Shown here: one piece after another, positions 1,242 through 63,758 of the stretch | Numbering within the stretch: the first letter of the stretch is position 1 | How the letters are laid out: every line of letters starts with the position of its first letter | Origin: Botryotinia globosa | Taxonomy: Eukaryota > Ascomycota > Leotiomycetes > Helotiales > Sclerotiniaceae | DNA: 64,000 nucleotides | NCBI GenBank assembly: GCA_014898425.1 | Contig: RCSZ01000014.1 | Coordinates: 1 to 64,000, forward strand | Direction: 5' to 3' | Program-made: the position numbers and the translations under genes | The notes under the pieces: model-generated | Seen by the model: the letters and a program-made list of their open reading frames with translations, nothing else | The model's database searches: none | Told to the model about the DNA's origin: nothing

Positions 1242-3437
1242 CTAGCCTGATTTTGAAGGTTCCATAAAGCCTTTCACATCCAAAGAATATTTGTTGTTCT
1301 CATCCATTTGCAGCCGCCCAGTCACCTGCAGCGATAATCCCTCTGGATGAGAGACTACTGTCTGATGTAACCGGGTATATGCACTGGCTTCTTCTTTGGT
1401 AAGTGGCTTGGGCACCTTCGCCACATTATCCCATTCGAGCTTGCTGTCTGCCAGAAACTGATTAAGAACCACTTCAGATCGAGTCGATGTACCAGATAAT
1501 GTTAGTTGTCTGCCATTCATCGTAACTATACCCGTGAGCGTCATCTCGATACCGCGCATCGTGTACGTGCCCCCGTCAATCTCGAAGAGCTCCTTCCGCC
1601 ATACGTTGATATCGGGCAGAATGTCATCGTGAAGGTAAACGAACGCAACAGAGATGGTTGCATTTGGTCTTGGAAGCACGGTCTTGATGTCTTTGATGCT
1701 GTTCAGTGCTTCGTATGCTCCACCCCAGCAAGCACCGAGGCCGTAAGGACACGTAGGCGTAAGACCAACAATGACGGGTGGCCCATCCTGTTCTGAGACG
1801 ACCTTCTGATTGCGCATCTCGAGGGATACGCCGATGTTTTTCTCTAGAACAGCATTCTGTGTTGATAACCCATCGGGTAGTTGTGGTTGTACGGGTATCA
1901 CAACGTCAGGTCTGAGCAGCATGATAGGCGCCACTGCTGGTACGCCTTCCTTGCTCACGAGAAAAAGCATGTAATGACCTGGTGGAGCCAAAAAATGATT
2001 CTTTGGTGCCTCTATGGTGAGCTCTGTCCCACTGGTTGTAAATTTCAAGAATTGGAACGATTGGTTCATGTTGTGTGAGTGAGTGACAGATCCAAGCCGT
2101 GTCCAGCTCACCTTGCTAATCACATCATGTTCGCCGACTGTGACTTTGAATTTTTGACCATAGTCGACAACCTCTGGCGGTTCACTGATGGTTGGTCGTT
2201 CGCCTTTGAACAAATAAGGTGGGCTGAATATCTGGGCGGTGGTTAGAGTGTGTTCAGGCTCGTTGGGTCTCTTTTGATTGTCCGGATCGTATTCCCCACC
2301 ACCAGCTGAAAGAACTCTGCCATCGGGTAGTAGTAGTGCTGTGTGGTGGTAGCAACGATCATCATCCTCCGGCGCCATCGTAGACCATTTTGTAGTAGCA
2401 GGATCCCACAGCTCAGGCTCATGGACGGGCTGACCCGGAGACAAGTCATTGAAGCCTAACCCTTTGGTTCCTCCAGTCACAAGTACAGTGCCATCGGGCA
2501 ACGTGGTAGCAAAGGAATGTCGACGCCCATGCTCAATTTCAGTCGTATATTCCCAGTGTGGTTTTGGGTCGTTCAAATCAATGATCTCTGTAGCATTGGT
2601 GGGAGGAACAGCATCGCCACCTCCACCACCAACATAGAGAATCTTACCACTATCATACATAGTTGAAGCGGCGTACTCGCGCTGACCCGCCTTGCGGAAT
2701 GGCGAATCGGCATCGCTCGACCATTCACCATGGCCACCGTGAGCATTCAAATCCAGAAAACGAGAGCTTCGCAATGGGCCCGCCATGAATATTCTCCCGT
2801 CTGGAACGTGGTAAAGCCGCGGGTAAAGAGCGAAAATATCAACGAGAGGCGTTTGGACTATACCCCATGTACTTGAATGTGAGTCCCAGATCTGGGGGAC
2901 CAGGTTGATCACAGGGTTTGTGACATCTTGTGAGCTGCCCGACACAACAAGACCTCTGCCATCAGACAAAGTTATAGCAGAGGGATACCAGCGACCTGCA
3001 GCCATCATAGGCATTACCGTCCATTGATCTTGGAAGGGATCGTAAACACAAGCTTGGTCTTCCCCGAAGCCATCCAGGACATGTCCACCGAAGATAATCA
3101 GGGTACCGTCTGGTTGGAACGTGTGCCCGGAACAGAAGAGATTCACGGAAAGCTCATCTTCGTTCATCGGGTCATGAGCGGTGCGCTTACTCTCTAGGGT
3201 GTCGACATCCAAGATGTAGACGTGGGTTTTGTGCTCATTGAGCGTCCAATAATCCATGCTGTGTACTGCAGAGCGTCGACCCCAGTAAAGGACCTTGCCA
3301 GTCGGTAGTAGGTGAAGATGAATAGCGCAATTTCCAAGTTGGAATTTTGGTGCCCATTCTCCGTGGACGGCCTTGTCGCCCATGTTTGCTTCGAATGTTT
3401 GAGGCCTGGGGTTGTGAGAAGGATGTATTGACGGCAC
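1242..3437 (-). CDS. AA5 copper-radical oxidase (galactose/glyoxal oxidase-like), intracellular form
   Basis: A 731-residue single-exon protein. It has Kelch-type propeller repeats (for example GTLIIFGGHV, GRGLVVSGSS, GKILYVGGGG, GTVLVTGGTK, GRVLSAGGGE) followed by a galactose-oxidase C-terminal Ig-like domain. The AA5 active-site residues can be aligned by eye. C102 (LFCSGHTF) and Y151 (GRWYPS) would form the Cys-Tyr cofactor. Y363-H364 (CYHH) and H453 (SVTHSHN) would be the remaining copper ligands. Such enzymes oxidise primary alcohols or aldehydes to the next oxidation state and release H2O2. Unlike most fungal AA5 enzymes it has no visible signal peptide: the N-terminus is polar (MPSIHPSHNPRPQ). 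It carries an extra ~190-residue C-terminal domain (from about residue 545, with TCPYGLGACWGGAYEAL). A start at M19 is also possible. The substrate cannot be told from sequence. Confidence 0.85.
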   Translation of the reverse strand: MPSIHPSHNPRPQTFEANMGDKAVHGEWAPKFQLGNCAIHLHLLPTGKVLYWGRRSAVHSMDYWTLNEHKTHVYILDVDTLESKRTAHDPMNEDELSVNLFCSGHTFQPDGTLIIFGGHVLDGFGEDQACVYDPFQDQWTVMPMMAAGRWYPSAITLSDGRGLVVSGSSQDVTNPVINLVPQIWDSHSSTWGIVQTPLVDIFALYPRLYHVPDGRIFMAGPLRSSRFLDLNAHGGHGEWSSDADSPFRKAGQREYAASTMYDSGKILYVGGGGGDAVPPTNATEIIDLNDPKPHWEYTTEIEHGRRHSFATTLPDGTVLVTGGTKGLGFNDLSPGQPVHEPELWDPATTKWSTMAPEDDDRCYHHTALLLPDGRVLSAGGGEYDPDNQKRPNEPEHTLTTAQIFSPPYLFKGERPTISEPPEVVDYGQKFKVTVGEHDVISKVSWTRLGSVTHSHNMNQSFQFLKFTTSGTELTIEAPKNHFLAPPGHYMLFLVSKEGVPAVAPIMLLRPDVVIPVQPQLPDGLSTQNAVLEKNIGVSLEMRNQKVVSEQDGPPVIVGLTPTCPYGLGACWGGAYEALNSIKDIKTVLPRPNATISVAFVYLHDDILPDINVWRKELFEIDGGTYTMRGIEMTLTGIVTMNGRQLTLSGTSTRSEVVLNQFLADSKLEWDNVAKVPKPLTKEEASAYTRLHQTVVSHPEGLSLQVTGRLQMDENNKYSLDVKGFMEPSKSG

Positions 3438-5150: not shown

Positions 5151-6449
5151 ATGCACGAGAACACCAATTTTCTCAATGTCCCGATCTCGTTCAAGTTAAC
5201 GGAAGTTGATGGTCTCACCTCGCCAAAACCCAACATCGAACCCGATGTGAACAAAGGCCTTCCATCCTACACACCGATCAGTAAAGGAGCTGGCAAGAAT
5301 AATGATCCAATTCCTGGAGAACTCAATATCCTTGCGAAGCTCACTGGGGATTTTCACGGTGCTGGGTTGAACATGATCTTCCGCCCATCCTGGGGAAACA
5401 ACAGGAGGAATAACGTTCTGGAGTACAACGTGACCGAAGAGGACACACAGTTCTTGAAGGACATTGGCGACATATTCAACCGAGGTCTGGGCAGGCAACG
5501 AGACGTAATTTTGAAGGGCGTTCCATACATGCAGACGATCAAAGATATGCTCAATCCCATAACAGGACAGGCCGATCGGAAGGAAGGGATTCCAATTCAC
5601 TTCGAGTCAGGCATGTTTCTTAGAACTCCACCGACTGAGATCAGGCCTGAGGTCCTTCGAGGTACTATCTCTCGCCTAGCATCTATACCACACGGAACTG
5701 CCATCAACTGCCAAGGCTTCGAACCAGACATGAAGAACCCTATATCTGGTAACCCAGATATCAAACCAATCTCAGTCTTACCATTCCCCATGGGTATGCA
5801 CGGCGATGTCAACACATTTGCAGACTTTTTTCCTCAGCTGAATTTCAAGAGAAAATATGAGCTGCGTATTCCCCAAGAGATCAAGGAGGGCGACGTACTC
5901 AATCCACCTCTCATGCTAGATCCCAACCAGATGCTAAGAGAATTCAATGAAAACAGCACGAAGAAAAAAATCCGAGAACACCTTTTCTTCACAATCCATT
6001 CCGACCCCGTAGTTTCTAAGATTCCCGGCGGTGGCACAGCAAACATTGCTTTCCTGCAAGGCTCAGGTATTCGTGATGGCCGCCAAAACCCAGGCCCTAA
6101 TGCCCATGGCGTCAATGTCGGATGTGATTATTGGATTTCAACTGTTGAATACGATGTTCTGCTACCGGAAGGTGATTTCTCTGGGGATAAGAAAGAGACG
6201 AGAGTTGTTGAGTCTGAAGCACGGAAAGAGGAGAAAGCAGCTGGCAAGATAGTGGTTTCCCCTTCTTTCGAATTGAAGCTGGACAGGGTGATACCACCAA
6301 ACACGACTGTGAAGCTCGATGCTACCCAAATTCAATACTCACAGAATGTCACATTGGACTTTGATGAGATGGGTTGGCCACACATCTCAGTGGCCACGTT
6401 GTCGCCAAAGAACCCAGTGCCAATTAAGGCTTCTCAGATTGTTTTCTGA
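5151..6449 (+). CDS. Conserved heme-binding/peroxidase-like family protein
   Basis: A 432-residue single-exon protein. I chose the ATG at 5151 because of its good context (A at -3) and its position after the TATA-like run. The conserved pattern is recognisable along the whole length: GDFHGAGLNMIFRP, then NRGLGRQRDVILKGVPYMQT, IHFESGMFLRTPP, RLASIPHGTAINCQGF, and near the end GGGTANIAFLQGSG...GPNAHGVNVGCDYWISTVEYDV. Proteins with this pattern occur in fungi and bacteria. I recall them annotated as 'heme-binding' or 'peroxidase-like', but I cannot name a proven activity. There is no signal peptide or membrane segment. The tail after about residue 350 (SFELKLDRVIPPNTTVKLDATQ) looks like an extra beta-rich segment. 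Confidence 0.7.
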   Translation: MHENTNFLNVPISFKLTEVDGLTSPKPNIEPDVNKGLPSYTPISKGAGKNNDPIPGELNILAKLTGDFHGAGLNMIFRPSWGNNRRNNVLEYNVTEEDTQFLKDIGDIFNRGLGRQRDVILKGVPYMQTIKDMLNPITGQADRKEGIPIHFESGMFLRTPPTEIRPEVLRGTISRLASIPHGTAINCQGFEPDMKNPISGNPDIKPISVLPFPMGMHGDVNTFADFFPQLNFKRKYELRIPQEIKEGDVLNPPLMLDPNQMLREFNENSTKKKIREHLFFTIHSDPVVSKIPGGGTANIAFLQGSGIRDGRQNPGPNAHGVNVGCDYWISTVEYDVLLPEGDFSGDKKETRVVESEARKEEKAAGKIVVSPSFELKLDRVIPPNTTVKLDATQIQYSQNVTLDFDEMGWPHISVATLSPKNPVPIKASQIVF

Positions 6450-50234: not shown

Positions 50235-52193
<1,959 letters not shown>

Positions 52194-56023: not shown

Positions 56024-56480
56024 GCACTTCTATTTGGTCGAGAGTTATTTTATACCAAAACTTATCATTTAAATATATTTAGTTTTAAATAAAATTATAT
56101 ATTTATTTTTGAAATAATTATATCAATTTATTTATTTTTATATTTTCTTTGATAAAAACTATTTATTTTATTTTTAGAAATTTTATATATTATAAAATAT
56201 TCATTCAATATTTTAAAATTCTAATATATTAAAAATTACAATCAAAATAAGTGAATTTTTAAAAACTTTTTGATAAATTTTTTTTAAAAATATATATTAT
56301 ATCTATTAATTCTTTAAAAAAGAAGGAAAATCTTATTATAAATATTATTTATATATAAGTAATTAAATTATTGAATTTATTAAAAAAAAACTATTCAAAA
56401 GAATAATAATCTAATTTCTAAAAAGTAATAAAATAGCAGTGTATTTGAATGTATTTTTGAGATCGACCAAATAGAAGTGC
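56024..56480. mobile_element. MITE copy 2 (GCACTTCTATTTG family), intact, inverted
   Basis: 457 bases between GCACTTCTATTTGGTCGA and its complement. Same element as 9145-9765 in the opposite orientation, without the LTR insertion. It lies just downstream of the first CaaX gene. Confidence 0.8.
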
Positions 56481-56605: not shown

Positions 56606-56889
56606 CTACATAATTATACATCCACAACACGAACCTTCTCCTAATTTTACTGGCGCTTTTTGCTAGAGGGAAGGAAGAAAGTTAGTGGATTGGATTGGAT
56701 TGGATATCTATATTTAAATGTGTATATATATGTATGTATGTATTGAGCTGAGTGGGTATGGAGAGAACTTACAGGTGCAGGCGGGCGGTCCAAAAATCTT
56801 GGTGCTGGTATCTCAATGGGTCCATTCATGCTTTCGGTGAACTTGCTGGTATAGGGTGCCTTCTTCTGAGGCCTGTTCTGGGGTGGCAT
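56606..56889 (-). CDS. 57-residue CaaX-box protein (ends CIIM)
   Basis: Two exons: 56889-56773 (39 codons) and 56662-56606. The intron is GTAAGT...CTAAC...CTAG, phase 0. The first exon is Pro/Lys-rich and disordered (MPPQNRPQKKAPYTSKF... RFLDRPPAP). The second encodes QKAPVKLGEGSCCGCIIM and stop. The last four residues CIIM are a CaaX box, with Met favouring farnesyltransferase. Two further cysteines just before could be palmitoylated, so the product should be membrane-anchored. It shares gene structure and promoter elements with the three genes to its right. It is longer than typical a-factor-like pheromone precursors and no homologue is recognised. The splice model is read from sequence only. 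Confidence 0.6.
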
Positions 56890-58142
56890 GTTGTTGTGCA
56901 GTAAAATCCTAGTGGGACGCTGACTGTGTGAGTTGTGAGGGGTGAGTTTGATAATGTGGTTTGATGGGAGTTGGTGAATGATTTTGAGTGCTTGAGTGGG
57001 TTATCTGTGATTGGAAAGTGTAAAATACTTTGATATTTGTCAAGTTTAACGGCTTGAATGTACTGTTTAATCCAGAATGTGGTGCTCTGAGTTGGGGATA
57101 ATTCTCTAAGCTCTTGAGCCGTGGAATTATGTATTCGTTATTACTCATGGAGTTGATATGAGTCTTGGGGTTTGGTGGGTGTAGAGTCATAGTTGGGGGT
57201 GGTAGCTATGAGTGTTGATGGATGATTGATGGGGGTGACTGGGGAAGTGACTGGTCAGATGGACTGGTGAAAACGACTGTCCATGATATGGCTTCACGGG
57301 TTTATATAGAAGAGGATGGAGTTCTAAATGGAAGATATTGTTGTATTGGTGCTATAGAAGTCTATGAAAAGGTAACGAGTCCATCCAACTGTTGATTCTT
57401 AGACCTAGTGGCCCGGTCAATTAATACGAAGCATACTTAGAAGCTATGCTATCGATCTATACTACGGCATATTTGCAGGATTCACTAGATTTTTGTCAAG
57501 AGTTGGCACTATTTTTGGCTTCATTGCACACTCAAAATTGGTAAATATAGTATGCGAAGGGTCAAGTAGGAGAATCTGAAGCGAGTTGCTTCATTCTAGA
57601 AGATGTCATCAATAAACGTTGATGAATTTGTGTGTAAACAGTTTCGCATCTGGCTACAGACTATTACGCTTTGGCTCTTTAAAAGAGATTGAGGATAAAG
57701 GCGGATTGTGAGATCAAGAAGAATTTATTTTGTTTAGAAGTTATGAGCCTTCCTGATCAATCATACTTTTATAAATGAGTTCCCATGTTACAAGCTCTGG
57801 AGTAAAGGAAGAAAATGATTGCGAGACTGACTGTGCGAGACACATTTGAATTTCCTTCCAATCAGATTGAGATCATCACGAAGGGATGCATTGATCGCAT
57901 AGAAATTCATTTAAACAACGATTGCTTATTGTACAGGTCATTCATATCCAAAATATTGACGCTCAAGTCTAGTAACATTGGCAATTCAATATGCAAACAC
58001 TCCTCAAAGTAGAGAAATAGGGAGTCTCAAAAAGATTCCAGTGGTACCTAACCTCACTCAACCCTACCCGCAAGATTACTAATAGGAACGCAATGTTAAG
58101 TAGAGTCGGATAGTTACAAGCAAATGGCTTCCATTATAATAC
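56890..58142. other. Intergenic, promoter of the 56889 gene
   Basis: Contains the conserved promoter elements described separately and, near 57300, GGTTTATATAGAAGAGGATGG. This resembles 60520-60538 (TTTTTTATAGAAGAGGCTCC), another trace of duplication. No other gene is recognised. Confidence 0.45.
57156..57254 (-). promoter_or_regulatory. Shared promoter module, gene 56889
   Basis: GTGACTGGGGAAGTGACTGG at 57235-57254 and, 79 bases closer to the gene, ATATGAGTC at 57156-57164. Both correspond to elements found upstream of the genes at 59901, 61001 and 62188. No clear TATA box here. Confidence 0.45.
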
Positions 58143-59901
58143 CTATCTCTTCCACCAAGGACGTTTCTTCTCCCTATTCTTTCCCTATTTAAAAAGTTAG
58201 CAAGCTTTAAATCTGATGAAAAATTGAGTATGATAATTTACTTACACAAGATCGTACAGGCGGACTCTGCTTAACTTTGTCTGAAAGTGCTTGCGGTGAT
58301 TTCAGAGGAGGCCTTCTTGGTCTCTTGAGGGTGTTTGGAGGAGGTCTTTCTTCAAAGTGGACAGTTCTTTGGGGTGGTTTTAGAGTGAGTGGTGCTGGGG
58401 GTCTGTGAGATCTTGATGATGATGATGATGACGGTTGATGTGATATCGGAAATCGCTCTAGGAATCCTGTTTCTAACCGGACGTTGTTGTCTGACGGCCT
58501 AGGAATATTTTGTGCTCGAGGTCTGGAAGATTTTGCTGATGGCAGGAGATGCTTTTCAATTTGACGATCATGCAAATCTAGTCTGTCATATTGATCTGCA
58601 TAAATCTTGAGGTCCAGGTTCTGGTGTGCTTGGAATCGCTCAAGTGGCGGAAATCTTTTTTCAAACTGACTGATGTGGTTTTCTGATAATTTGGGAGTAA
58701 TTGGGATTTCAGGTTCTTGAGATCTTGCTAATGACGGGCTGTGCCTTTTAATCCGACGATCATGCGCATCTAGTCCGTCATATTGATCTGCATATATTTC
58801 GAAGCATAGATTTTGTTGTGCGTGGGGTCGCTCAACTGGCGAATGTATCCTGCTGCATCCAGGTCTTGAACGGGAAGGTTCCGAAAATTGCATCGAGGAT
58901 CTTCGCGATGGTATATCATGAATTACGCCTGCGATAGAGTTATGTCTTTGAATTCCGCTTGCTGTTACTGTTTGTGGTCGAGCATGCTTGATTTCCTTGA
59001 GAGTTTGTTGTAACTTCTCAAGTTCTTTGCTTGGTCGGAGGTGCTCAAAATCGGAGAATTCCCTCTTTAGCTCTTTCATATTCATTCTTGAAAGGGTTCG
59101 GGGTGGCTCTAATTGGGAACTGTTTTGCGAGGAAGATGATTTTGCTCGCGAATGCGGCCTGTGTGGATTTTCTCGGAGTGAAATATTCGCTGTCTGTGGT
59201 AGGATGAATTTGGGGCTCTTAGAAATTTCCACTTTTGTATTCTCGTCGAGATTGTACTGACGTTTTTGCAATGGCTTTCTTGGTATTTTAAACGTGTTTG
59301 CAACAAGTGGGTATCCGTAAGTCTTGCGCGTTTCTGGGGATATATTATCATAGTAATCTGCTTGCTCTTTTGAAAAAGTCAAGGCTGGTGGTGGCGTTGA
59401 TGGGTCTTGAGAATCTTGTGTCTCTGAGTACGACTGTTGAACTTCTTTTGATAGCCTAATAGGAGGAAGCTCACTACTCCTGGTCGGATCCGCTTGGGGA
59501 GACTCAGAGTAACCACCACTTCCTATATGTGTAAACCCCTCAGGTTTTTTCTCTGATGGCCCAGAAGTCTGGGATCCTTTCGTTTGTGAAGACGTTTTTT
59601 TCGACTCAGCGATGGACTCTGAGTCAGGATCAGTGACATCATATCGCCAACCTTCAATGTGCTCTGCCTGTGGCCTATAGGAGTACTCGGCTCGTGAATG
59701 CTTCTTTCTCTTTGAGTGAGGACCAGTAGATTCACGTTGCCAAGTTTCTGTGGGATTTCTCTGGGGCTTGGAGGACTTTTCCCGATTACCCTCAGGTAGT
59801 AGAAAGTGTAGTTTGGAGTGCAGCCACGATTGTTTGTTCGCCACAACATTTGGAGTTGACTTATTCGCCAGCTTGGACTTTTGAATTGAATTGAGCGGCA
59901 T
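58143..59901 (-). CDS. 565-residue disordered orphan protein with an internal repeat, same gene design as the CaaX genes
   Basis: Exon 1 59901-58246, intron of 61 bases (GTAAGT...GCTAAC...ATAG, phase 0), exon 2 58184-58143. I chose the ATG at 59901 (MPLNSIQKSKLANK); the frame is open 91 codons further upstream but that is probably leader. The protein is Ser/Pro/Arg-rich and mostly disordered. Two copies of a ~60-residue unit are visible near residues 355-395 and 419-460, each with QNL...IYADQYDxLDxHDRxI. The short last exon gives GKNREKKRPWWKR: a polybasic/Trp tail, not a CaaX box. An internal Cys ends exon 1 (PPVRSC). It shares promoter elements with its neighbours. No family is recognised. 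Confidence 0.55.
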
Positions 59902-60717
59902 GGCGTGAAAAAAACAAGTAGTGGGAAGGAAGAGGCGAAAGATCAGGGGTAATGCAAGTATGTGGATCTTGCGAAGTATATCTAGTAAGACAGGTGTATC
60001 TGAAGATACCGATGCTCGTAGAAACTTTGAAATTATTTTTGAACTTGATTGTTGTATGAAATGTGAGAAAGTTCCCCAACCGATGGAGATAGAAGCTATA
60101 AATATATCCATAGGTAAGGACAATGAATGTTTAGCTTTTGTGGTTGTGTAGTCATAATATGCCCTGTAAGGCAAGAAATAATGTCGCTTATGACTCCTGA
60201 GATTATGGCAATGTATAAATTACCCTATGAGTGAGCGGTTGAATAACTGAAGCGTTCTTGACATGATGTGCATATGAATCACGTATCACATGGGACTGAA
60301 AAGTCATAAGTACTATCCTTATGAGTCCTAGAGTAGTCGGAAGAAATGACTGGGAAGAATGACTCGGGCTGCTGGAAATTGAGAAAGAATGAGTTATACA
60401 ATGAAAGGATAGGATAGTTGTGGCTTATAGTTCTCAAGTCTTAAAAATAGTCTCATCAATGCTTGAGAGCGGAACTCACATCCACACTTTAGATTCAAGG
60501 AGATCAGTCTGGGGGGGTTTTTTATAGAAGAGGCTCCTGAAGAGATGCGAACAGCAACGATTGTGTATTTTACAGTCAGTCTATATCCTAAACCCACATG
60601 GCAAAGTACCACAACAATAGGTAAACCTCAAAATTCCCATGAAAAGCCATATCCTCTTAGGAAGACACAACATCGATACGATGCCCAAACAGCCATACGC
60701 AGAACTCCGTCTTCAGC
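59902..60717. other. Intergenic between the 59901 and 61001 genes
   Basis: Holds the promoter of the minus-strand gene at 59901. Open frames are short and not protein-like. Confidence 0.45.
60213..60364 (-). promoter_or_regulatory. Shared promoter module, gene 59901
   Basis: ATGACTGGGAAGAATGACT (60346-60364), then ATATGAATCA (60272-60281), then a TATA-like TATAAATT (about 60213). The order and spacing resemble those at the other three genes. Confidence 0.5.
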
Positions 60718-61001
60718 CTACATTACCGAACAGCATCCACTTTCTTTCTACCAAAAAGTTAGTGTACTTATTCTGTATGGAGGAATAAAATGTTTATTAC
60801 CTTTTCAAAATCTTTTTCAAGAATGCGACCTTTGAAACCTGCTTTTTCCTCCATGTTTTCGAAGGTGGCTTGACTTGGATCGTATTTCTTCTTTTCGACG
60901 GACTGTCCATGTGCTGAAATACGGGGTCGCTGGGCGTTTTTGTGCTTGATATTGGGACCTACATAATTGGAGATGTCGACGACTTGAGGATTCAACGTCA
61001 T
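60718..61001 (-). CDS. 76-residue CaaX-box protein (ends CSVM)
   Basis: Exon 1 61001-60801 (67 codons), a 53-base intron (GTAATA...CACTAAC...GGTAG, phase 0) and exon 2 60747-60718 (nine codons and stop). The last exon reads KESGCCSVM, giving a CSVM CaaX box with one extra Cys before it. Exon 1 is charged and mostly polar (NAQRPRISAHGQSVEKKKYD, ATFENMEEKAGFKGRILEKD). Without the splice the frame runs into a stop shortly after the donor and the CaaX box is lost. The intron end (CACTAA..TTTTTGGTAG then AAA) is almost identical to that of the 62188 gene, so the two are likely paralogues. The product should be farnesylated and membrane-associated. Function unknown. Confidence 0.6.
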
Positions 61002-61261
61002 ACTCGCTCTTAGAGTTGATGTAATTTCTGGATTTTGAGACCTCGGGGACTGGATCGTGGATTGGAAAATAAGAATTGGGCAATGACGATGCGAAATCTT
61101 GTGGTTGATTTGAAGTGCTTCAAGCGAATAAAGTGTTTGAGCCAGATATATGAGAGTACTAATACTGATCAACGTATGCAGGAGTCGACTCAGAAGGGTG
61201 AATGGAATCTGAGTGGATGTTCTGCTTTGGTCTCTTGGACACATCTGCAGCAGAAGTGGGA

Positions 61262-61380
61262 CTATTTATATTGAGATCTATATTGCCATGAGTCGCATTA
61301 GGGCTTCCTGATATGAATCATAGATACGATTACTATTATTTTTATGAGTAACAAGAGAAAATGACTGGAAATAATGACTG
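61262..61380 (-). promoter_or_regulatory. Shared promoter module, gene 61001
   Basis: ATGACTGGAAATAATGACT (61360-61378), ATATGAATCA (61311-61320), TATA-like CTATTTATA (about 61262-61270). Same order as for the neighbours. Confidence 0.5.
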
Positions 61381-61635
61381 TTCAGGATACTGCTTTTGCA
61401 TGAGAGATGAAAGGGTAATAAGAGTCTTGAGGAGGCATGGAAGCTATCGATATCAATCAATAAGCAGTAAAACGATCCATTTGAGCTTCTCGGGTTATTC
61501 TAAAGCAGCGATTACATATTATACAGTACGAAAGCATTCAAAACTCCAGTGATATCAACACCTCGCTACACTTCTGAGCAAGAAGCTGAATGAAAAACAA
61601 CAATGAACTATGCTCATGACACTATTTCCAGCACT

Positions 61636-62188
61636 CTACATCACCACGCAGCAGCCTCCCTCTTCACTACTAGGTTTCTACCAAAACGATTAGTGCTATT
61701 TTTATATATACGAAAAGAATAAATAGATTTTGCTGTACCTTCTGAGGTGTCGGTCTAGAAACAGATGGCTTGGGTTGAGCCCATACTGGCGGTCCCAAAC
61801 CTCTTGCCGCTCTTCGATTGTCTCGAACATAATGATGCGATTTGTTCCGCACATTAGGTATGTCATACACAGGGTTTTGTCCATATGTCGAAATAATGCT
61901 GACTGTTGGAGATGGCGGCGGTGCTGGCTTTGATCCTTGTCGTTGCTGTTCTTGCATTCTTTGTGCGCGGTAATATTCGTCAGCACTGGGAGTTTCATCT
62001 CTGATATACTGATGCCGAAACATAGTTGAGTCGATAGGAGGTGGCTTTGGCACGTAATTCGAGGCCACCCGGTGCGAAGGGAACCAATTTTCCTCGTAGC
62101 ATTGAGGGAAAGAAAAGGCGGGGTCTCGTTCTACTCGCTTCAAGGCACCTTGAGCGTCCCAGCCACTCCTGAGTTTTGAAGATGTCAT
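61636..62188 (-). CDS. 163-residue CaaX-box protein (ends CVVM)
   Basis: Exon 1 62188-61739 (150 codons), a 61-base intron (GTACAG...CACTAAT...GGTAG, phase 0) and exon 2 61677-61636. The last exon reads KPSSEEGGCCVVM and stop. CVVM is a CaaX box of the kind found on fungal a-factor-like pheromone precursors, and the preceding Cys may be palmitoylated. Exon 1 is Pro/Arg/Tyr-rich and disordered, with no membrane segment (FPQCYEENWFPSHRVASNYV, DEYYRAQRMQEQQRQG, AARGLGPPVWAQPKP). At 163 residues it is much longer than known pheromone precursors, and no pheromone-like repeat is visible. It is better described as a prenylated orphan protein. Shares promoter elements and final intron with the neighbours. 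Confidence 0.6.
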
Positions 62189-62401: not shown

Positions 62402-62524
62402 ATTTATATACACTCCTTCATTGCGGGATATGAATCAAATCAGTTACGGCTATGATATCCACAGTCATACAAACAGGTCCTCAAGACATTGTAGTCATGC
62501 AAAAGGACTGGGGGAAATGACCAG
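62402..62524 (-). promoter_or_regulatory. Shared promoter module, gene 62188
   Basis: GGACTGGGGGAAATGACCAG (62505-62524), ATATGAATCA (62428-62437), TATA-like TTTATATA (about 62403-62410). Same order as at the other three genes; the TGAC motif is the most divergent copy. Confidence 0.5.
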
Positions 62525-63758
62525 TTCGTTTGTTCATCCCACTCACAGTTTGGCGCCGTAGCAAACCAGTCAAAATTTGTAATGAACAGTACGAGAATAT
62601 GAGACCATTCATACTATAAAGACCGTTGACTATGCTAAGCTCCCGAGGAGAAGAAGAAACGGTTATTCCCAAGAAATGCAGTAGAACCGGCAACTTCACC
62701 GATATCAATACCGTCGTCTCATGGAGATATATCCTTGGAAAACTGATATATATATCATCAACTTCATGCCCAAAATGCCACATTTACTGATACATGTGTC
62801 GTGCCACTTGAGCCATACCTTTCATCACCACAGAACAACCCTTTCTTTCAAGAAAGAACTAGCTTCTTTTCACACTTATCAAATCAAAAATATAAGGAAA
62901 ATTAATAAAACATTCCCTACGTTTCAACTCAAAAAAACGGTGGCAATTTTTGTCCGTGATGGCCCGTACTTCAGTAAAGACGATCTTTCCTCGATTTAAG
63001 ACTAATCTTTCTTCTTTTTGAGAAATCAGAGATTTTTCGCATGGAATTACCCTGTGAGAGTGGCATGATAAATGATTCTTTGGTTAATCTCTGATGAGAG
63101 AGCAAAGGCGATGAGGTGGATATTAATGCATAAGATTCAGATATCTTTGCTAAGTCCGATTTGACGTGTGCAAAAAGAACCACTGTCAATAAGCATCTGC
63201 AGCCGCAGCAAACCAATATGTTAGTTTGAGATTCAAACAACGCGCTTTGAAATCGTGACTCGCATTCTCGAGTGATTTTAGATACCTACTGATACGAAGA
63301 TATGGATGGTACATGTGGCAATTAAATGAGTCGTATCGATGTTCGTGGAAGAGTTATGAGGAATGAGTGAAGCAATAAGTGAATTTCAAAAATGAGCTGT
63401 CATTAGGAGTCACAATACAGGATAAAAGAATTTGTAGCCTTCAATAGCTAGTTCCTGTTATATTGATAAAAATGTATTAAATCTCCGATTTCTGTGCCAT
63501 GAGAAGAGCGTGCCTTGCGATTTTCTTGAATTCCCCCCCGAATTCCCGCCCTTGAAATACATATTTTACAAAGCGCCTCATAAATTCTCTTCCGTAGTCC
63601 GCGCCGGGTCACTATCGGTATATCTTTGCAGTTCACTTCTACCTGCTGTCCTATGCACCGACCCTGCCCATTAACAGTTTTGCCATTGGGATCATTGCCC
63701 TTTCTCGCAACAACAACCATATTCCAATCTCGTCAACCTCTTTATTGCACAGCTCCAC
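62525..63758. other. Intergenic
   Basis: No gene recognised. Short frames (for example 62971-63240 minus, with VCCGCRCLL) lack support, and no further CaaX-type last exon was found. Confidence 0.4.

Follow-up and report, generated by a model that had tools for sequence, protein, structure and literature searches.

Three small genes with a CaaX box on a separate last exon

The window analysed here is the first 64 kb of contig RCSZ01000014.1 (contig C14; 1,945,743 bases) of Botryotinia globosa, whose genome of 45.7 Mb in 27 contigs was also scanned. Its minus strand carries three small genes, named A, B and C, each of which would acquire a C-terminal CaaX box ending in Met from a short last exon. 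Splicing in silico of A at 56663-56772 (110 bp), B at 60748-60800 (53 bp) and C at 61678-61738 (61 bp) yielded proteins of 57, 76 and 163 amino acids with the C-termini SCCGCIIM, SGCCSVM and GGCCVVM, respectively, as a first-pass annotation of the sequence had claimed. A Cys stands four residues from the end of each spliced frame and also of C as deposited; the spliced gene C is identical, letter for letter, to the deposited B. globosa protein EAF00_009577. All three introns are of phase 0, run from GT to AG and contain a branch-point-like CACTAA(C/T). The 53- and 61-base introns of B and C were said to have near-identical ends, and their 3' ends both read CACTAA..TTTTGGTAG, followed by AAA. 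The donor of A is the consensus GTAAGT, while those of B (GTAATA) and C (GTACAG) are weak. It also held true that the box is lost without splicing, the unspliced frames of A, B and C ending in other C-termini.

Occurrence by chance of the structure and of the tail

Both strands of the 64 kb were scanned for a CaaX box ending in Met with a further Cys at most three residues away, on a short last exon preceded by a YAG acceptor, a branch-point-like site, a GTA or GTG donor and a frame that opens with ATG and spans 35 codons or more. Exactly three structures were retrieved, namely A, B and C, and none in any of 60 dinucleotide shuffles. Over 84 kb, an earlier scan with stricter demands on the donor returned A alone, missing B and C because of their weak donors; the rule was loosened after that result had been seen. 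Between 64 and 84 kb, a looser search for bare CC-type ends, with the sequence end as its only criterion, gave one match.

Across the genome, the pattern CC-x-[VIM]-M-stop, in which TGG was also accepted in place of the stop, had 20 matches and its reversed control 10. Among the 20 are B and C, on one strand and 918 bp apart; by a hand estimate, some pair this close would arise among 20 random matches with a chance of about 1%. Some of the remaining matches end long open frames or a known gene (L020, a G-gamma gene, and L012, L013, L017 and L025), and others sit in stop-broken frames. The pattern C[VIM][VIM]M-stop, which fits A and C, was unremarkable (45 matches, of which the loci of 30 were inspected, against 30 in the control), and another pair of its matches lies 5.4 kb apart.

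L013 (contig C3), L017 (C7) and L012 (C2) are open frames ending in ACCAVM, GCGCCVIM and GCCIIM, respectively, and their CC-type boxes follow low-complexity Q-, P- or R-rich stretches.

A tandem array with shared flanks

Between A and B lies a fourth gene, D, modelled as a protein of 565 amino acids; its last intron is of phase 0, as in the other three genes, and its tail is basic and Trp-bearing. Ten pairs of 3' blocks were aligned with 200 shuffles each; B-C scored 57 (shuffle maximum 36) and B-D 53 (shuffle maximum 46). Among 14 pairs of upstream regions, compared with 100 shuffles each, B-C reached 51 against a shuffle range up to 48 and D-B 52 against 50 (44 with D's longer frame); the nearest of the pairs within the shuffle range was A-B, at 49 against 50. 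A 34-base motif precedes A, D, B and C, in copies 65-100% identical to the reference copy. Genome-wide, TGACTGGNNNNNATGACT occurs twice, upstream of D and of B (reversed control 1), and a looser form, like it derived from these same copies, occurs eight times (control 0), three of the eight lying before D, B and C within 2.2 kb.

The bodies of the proteins behave otherwise. Shuffled sequences did as well as the body alignments A-B, A-C and B-C in 398, 449 and 270 of 500 trials, whereas the tails scored better than most shuffles (A-C reached by 1 of 200, B-C by 2 of 200). When whole proteins were compared with D, the score of B was reached by 1 of 200 shuffles, that of A by 39 and that of C by 92. 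A possible decayed copy of a tail exon, E, lies upstream of C; its score of 39 against B's 3' block was reached by 1 of 200 shuffles, and its score against C's block by 51 of 200.

Judged by these alignments, B and C arose by tandem duplication: they can be aligned in promoter, intron end, tail exon and 3' flank, though not in the bodies. B, C and D, on the same grounds, descend from one duplicated unit, because their flanks align (B-C and B-D). Homology outside the tail was found for these two pairs and not for A, whose ties to the array are the likeness of its tail and a 65% copy of the motif; A probably, but not surely, belongs to the same array, and its kinship with the rest is weak. The first-pass annotation had counted three independent occurrences, which fails on the duplication of B and C, the flanks that D shares with B and the motif upstream of all four genes. 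It had also called the proteins dissimilar, which is correct for the bodies and not for the flanks and tail exons of B and C.

Table 1. Positions of the genes and repeated elements of the array in the window
Feature	Position	Strand	Basis or remark
Gene A exon 1	56773..56889	-	open frame, phase-0 donor GTAAGT
Gene A last exon, QKAPVKLGEGSCCGCIIM + stop	56606..56662	-	spliced frame; structure-scanner match
Gene D exon 1 (model)	58246..59901	-	open frame extends back to 60111; start codon chosen by the analyst
Gene D last exon (model), GKNREKKRPWWKR + stop, no CaaX	58143..58184	-	after phase-0 61-bp intron 58185-58245
Gene B exon 1	60801..61001	-	spliced frame; start and tail also in fused B. tulipae model
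Gene B last exon, KESGCCSVM + stop	60718..60747	-	ESGCCSVM ends B. tulipae and B. elliptica models
Gene C exon 1 (EAF00_009577)	61739..62188	-	spliced frame; equals deposited protein
Gene C last exon, KPSSEEGGCCVVM + stop	61636..61677	-	spliced frame; deposited Botrytis models
Upstream motif copy before A	57232..57265		65% to reference copy
Upstream motif before D	60346..60363		repeat comparison and genome pattern counts
Upstream motif before B	61361..61378		repeat comparison and genome pattern counts
Upstream motif before C	62504..62521		repeat comparison and looser genome pattern count
38-base repeat, 3' flank of D	57916..57953		copies at 60555-60592 (3' of B) and 61506-61543 (3' of C)
E, possible decayed tail-exon copy upstream of C (weak)	62823..62858	-	repeat families D5 and D6

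Relatives in Botrytis

A protein search with C retrieved nine proteins including C itself; all eight that carry a species name are from Botrytis/Botryotinia, and the other is P0005. The CCxVM tail of C is present in three of the eight other relatives (GGCCVVM in B. byssoidea, RGCCVVM in B. narcissicola and VGCCLVM in B. cinerea, BCIN_14g01050). Two more, from B. tulipae and B. elliptica (P0002 and P0009), are C-B fusions that join C to B at different points and end in ESGCCSVM, the tail of B. A CaaX end in homologues had been set beforehand as a test of the family, and the outcome is mixed: five of the eight models have one (three with the tail of C, two with that of B) while three do not. Of these, P0005 and the B. 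aclada model end in QKVK just beyond C's donor, and the B. hyacinthi model is truncated. Homologues had been expected to be sought across Leotiomycetes; those retrieved with a species name were from Botrytis only.

Between B. globosa and B. cinerea, identity of C is 0.53 over residues 1-83, 0.49 over residues 84-150, 0.69 in the tail exon and 0.83 in the last six residues. The 2019 Botrytis gene models (B. tulipae, B. hyacinthi, B. narcissicola and others) were built, according to the available part of the report, with AUGUSTUS, SNAP and GeneMark-ES and with curated B. cinerea models as evidence (PMC6417074), and the narcissicola tail is therefore not independent of the cinerea one. In the B. 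tulipae counterpart of B, the tail EKESGCCSVM and a large part of residues 1-24 are retained around an altered middle with PKQ repeats; B's tail is identical in three species. A alone and B alone matched no deposited protein of like length in this search, which requires three shared 5-residue words; a fast-changing protein of 57 residues may offer none. Outside support by gene thus amounts to four deposited models for C, its own included, and two fusion models for B, with none found for A. Within the B. globosa genome, C had one further match at chance level (E 1.66), A matched nothing beyond its two exons and B nothing beyond itself. By this one protein search, A, B and C seem to be Botrytis-restricted genes. 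No earlier description of the family appeared in the literature searched; the supplement of PMC10569646 on small B. cinerea CaaX proteins lay outside that search.

Protein properties

Pfam, with matches accepted up to an E of 1, returned no family for any of A, B, C and the frame of D, and hence no G-gamma or Ras domain; NCBIfam had none for four relatives of C, and no PDB sequence matched the C alignment. A structure prediction for C from seven sequences gave a mean predicted local distance difference test score (pLDDT) of 57.8 and a predicted template modelling score (pTM) of 0.17, with a single helix at residues 69-83. C may thus be largely unstructured; a low score from so small an alignment agrees with disorder without proving it. 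The highest 17-residue hydropathy means of the spliced proteins were 0.78 for A (at the tail), 0.09 for B and 0.13 for C, and therefore nothing in them resembles a signal or a membrane span. We also considered that intron retention might produce a membrane-spanning form. The retained frame of C contains a hydrophobic stretch (hydropathy-window mean 2.62), which is missing from the retained frames of A (0.04) and B (0.53), and two related models that read past the donor stop after two residues; this idea was rejected.

Neighbouring features

Gene D contains two in-frame 170-base repeats, 71% identical to each other, at 58480-58649 and 58672-58841. About 130 bp past the stop of A, at 56025-56479, lies an AT-rich element of about 455 bp with perfect 17-bp inverted ends, CACTTCTATTTGGTCGA. 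Genome-wide, this end sequence was counted 63 times (reversed control 0), and many of the copies form facing pairs separated by about 435 bp, so the element looks like a member of a family resembling miniature inverted-repeat transposable elements. By its translation, the frame at 1242-3383 looks galactose-oxidase-like, that at 5151-6449 resembles a catalase and that at 51356-52063 an alcohol dehydrogenase. An Rfam search of the window gave nothing informative.

Interpretation

We favour, as probable though well short of certain, the reading that these are genuine Botrytis CaaX genes in a tandem array, with diverged bodies and lipidated tails, encoding membrane-tethered disordered proteins. 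Within it, the splicing, lipidation, location and role of A, B and C are inferred. A unit, along with its promoter, last intron and 3' flank, would have been duplicated to give B, C, D and probably A; the bodies would then have diverged past recognition, and of the four genes only D is without the CaaX exon. Farnesyltransferase acts on the Cys of a CaaX box if X is Met, after which the last three residues are removed and the end is methylated, and palmitoylation of a neighbouring Cys can hold a CaaX protein at the plasma membrane. The CC arrangement of the tails fits such a course: the CaaX Cys of each spliced tail would be farnesylated, trimmed and methylated, and the adjacent Cys probably palmitoylated, as in G-gamma or Ras proteins. 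The doubly lipidated tail would anchor a disordered, basic protein, soluble but for its lipids, to the inner side of the plasma membrane, and the variable body might there serve as bait or scaffold; a body that varies and lacks structure points to binding or scaffolding rather than to catalysis. At a guess, the basic Trp-bearing tail of D is another way to meet the membrane. The observation made in the first-pass annotation is confirmed and its interpretation partly supported: a lipid-anchored orphan family is still the natural reading.

Several points weigh against this reading. The splice donors of B and C are weak, and the gene structures were predicted from sequence and deposited models. 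The motif patterns came from the array's own copies, so their rarity elsewhere is the informative part. Seven of the 3' block pairs, every pair with A among them, score within chance; the upstream margin is thin, and 11 of the 14 upstream pairs, again including all with A, fall within the shuffle range. D belongs to the array by its flanks yet has no CaaX box, and the tail is therefore not essential to membership. Three of the eight other C models lack a CaaX end, and between B. byssoidea and B. narcissicola the tail (0.85 identity) is conserved no better than residues 1-83 (0.92).

Some of these points would suit other explanations. That only B and C are true CaaX genes and A a chance structure is unlikely, although no homologue of A was found in the protein search, its flanks align with no other unit and a repeated inverted-repeat element lies just past its stop. 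Not even one such structure appeared in the 60 shuffles, and A has a consensus donor, a tail like that of C (1 of 200 shuffles) and a motif copy upstream; the word requirement of the protein search could by itself have hidden a fast-changing protein of this length. We give slightly less credence to the idea that the genes are decaying or non-functional duplicates with unlipidated leftover tails. C is open over its full length, shares 53% identity with its B. cinerea counterpart and retains the CC and V-M of the tail, and B's tail is unchanged in three species; decay would nonetheless account for the missing box of D, the possible relic E next to the array, the unalignable bodies and the three tail-less models among eight.

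It is likewise improbable, to about the same degree or a shade more, that C and B form one gene with alternative ends, in which exon 1 of C is spliced either to the CaaX exon of C or past that exon to B, with its CaaX exon. Two models, those of B. tulipae and B. elliptica, do continue beyond C into B and finish with the tail of B. The B. elliptica fusion lies on a 715-kb contig, which exceeds the largest B. elliptica scaffold of the 2019 project (230 kb in the available part of PMC6417074), and the two fusions therefore probably come from different annotation projects. Their joints differ, however; C stands alone in the globosa, byssoidea, narcissicola and cinerea models; B has upstream sequence of its own, motif included, that shows homology with the corresponding regions of C and D; and the 2019 models, tulipae among them, are described as ab initio with protein evidence, the available part of the report naming no RNA sequencing (PMC6417074). 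A role of A, B and C as precursors for secreted signalling lipopeptides, either a-factor-like or hybrid-type pheromones, we consider very improbable. A and B resemble a-factors in small size, a CaaX box ending in Met and the lack of a signal peptide, but a gene with the published Leotiomycete a-factor features lies on contig C11, and A, B and C lack both an S/T-rich start and a GY ahead of the tail, carry an extra Cys next to the box and, in the case of C, extend to 163 residues; the three (LI)GC(TS)VM copies of the hybrid type were not seen in any of them.

If real, such a genus-restricted tandem set, with constant flanks and tail around changing bodies, would clearly exemplify young genes whose content is replaced behind a conserved address label, and it enlarges the list of candidate lipid-anchored proteins in an important genus of plant pathogens. 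A CaaX signal confined to an exon of 9 to 18 residues makes a small protein easy to overlook, as the lack of deposited proteins of like length for A and B illustrates, and this calls for caution in pheromone hunts that rely on CaaX ends among annotated proteins. As a long shot, the array may be built to vary: a fixed promoter and a fixed membrane-address exon would be copied while the cargo is free to change, giving fast-renewing disordered proteins tethered to the plasma membrane, which might take part in hyphal recognition or in conflict with viruses or competitors, with the lipid tail tradeable for a basic one as in D.

Comparison with known systems

The G-gamma gene of this genome (L020) resembles C in its CC-type CaaX end (GGCCLVM versus GGCCVVM). 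A, B and C, however, have no Pfam match. The last exon of the G-gamma gene is longer and carries conserved core sequence, and its capture as the source of the tails was rejected for this reason. In CDC42 the lipidation signal likewise lies on a last exon of its own, but there a single gene has two alternative tails, while A, B and C include duplicated neighbours with one tail each.

The Leotiomycete a-factor described in 2023 (BCIN_13g03330) is, like A, B and C, a small protein with a CaaX box ending in Met. The available part of that report gives a length of 45-64 residues, an S/T-rich start, a GY motif in 87 among the putative a-factors and CTVM as the commonest end (PMC10569646). It screened annotated proteins of at most 100 residues in seven genomes (PMC10569646), a limit that leaves C outside. 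The apparent B. globosa a-factor gene is L075 (G000:C11:1136803), which is intronless and S/T-rich and has DGY, three Cys before the box and CTVM. A, B and C lack the S/T-rich start and GY on reading, BCIN_13g03330 is set apart by its description and L075 fits instead, in agreement with the earlier view that they are no ordinary a-factors. The remaining parallel is HPP1 of Trichoderma, a short CaaX protein like B, whose GCCSVM recalls (LI)GC(TS)VM. The hybrid-type precursor, as the available part of its description states, has three copies of that motif (PMC3068285), in contrast to the single tail of each of A, B and C, and this identity was rejected as well.

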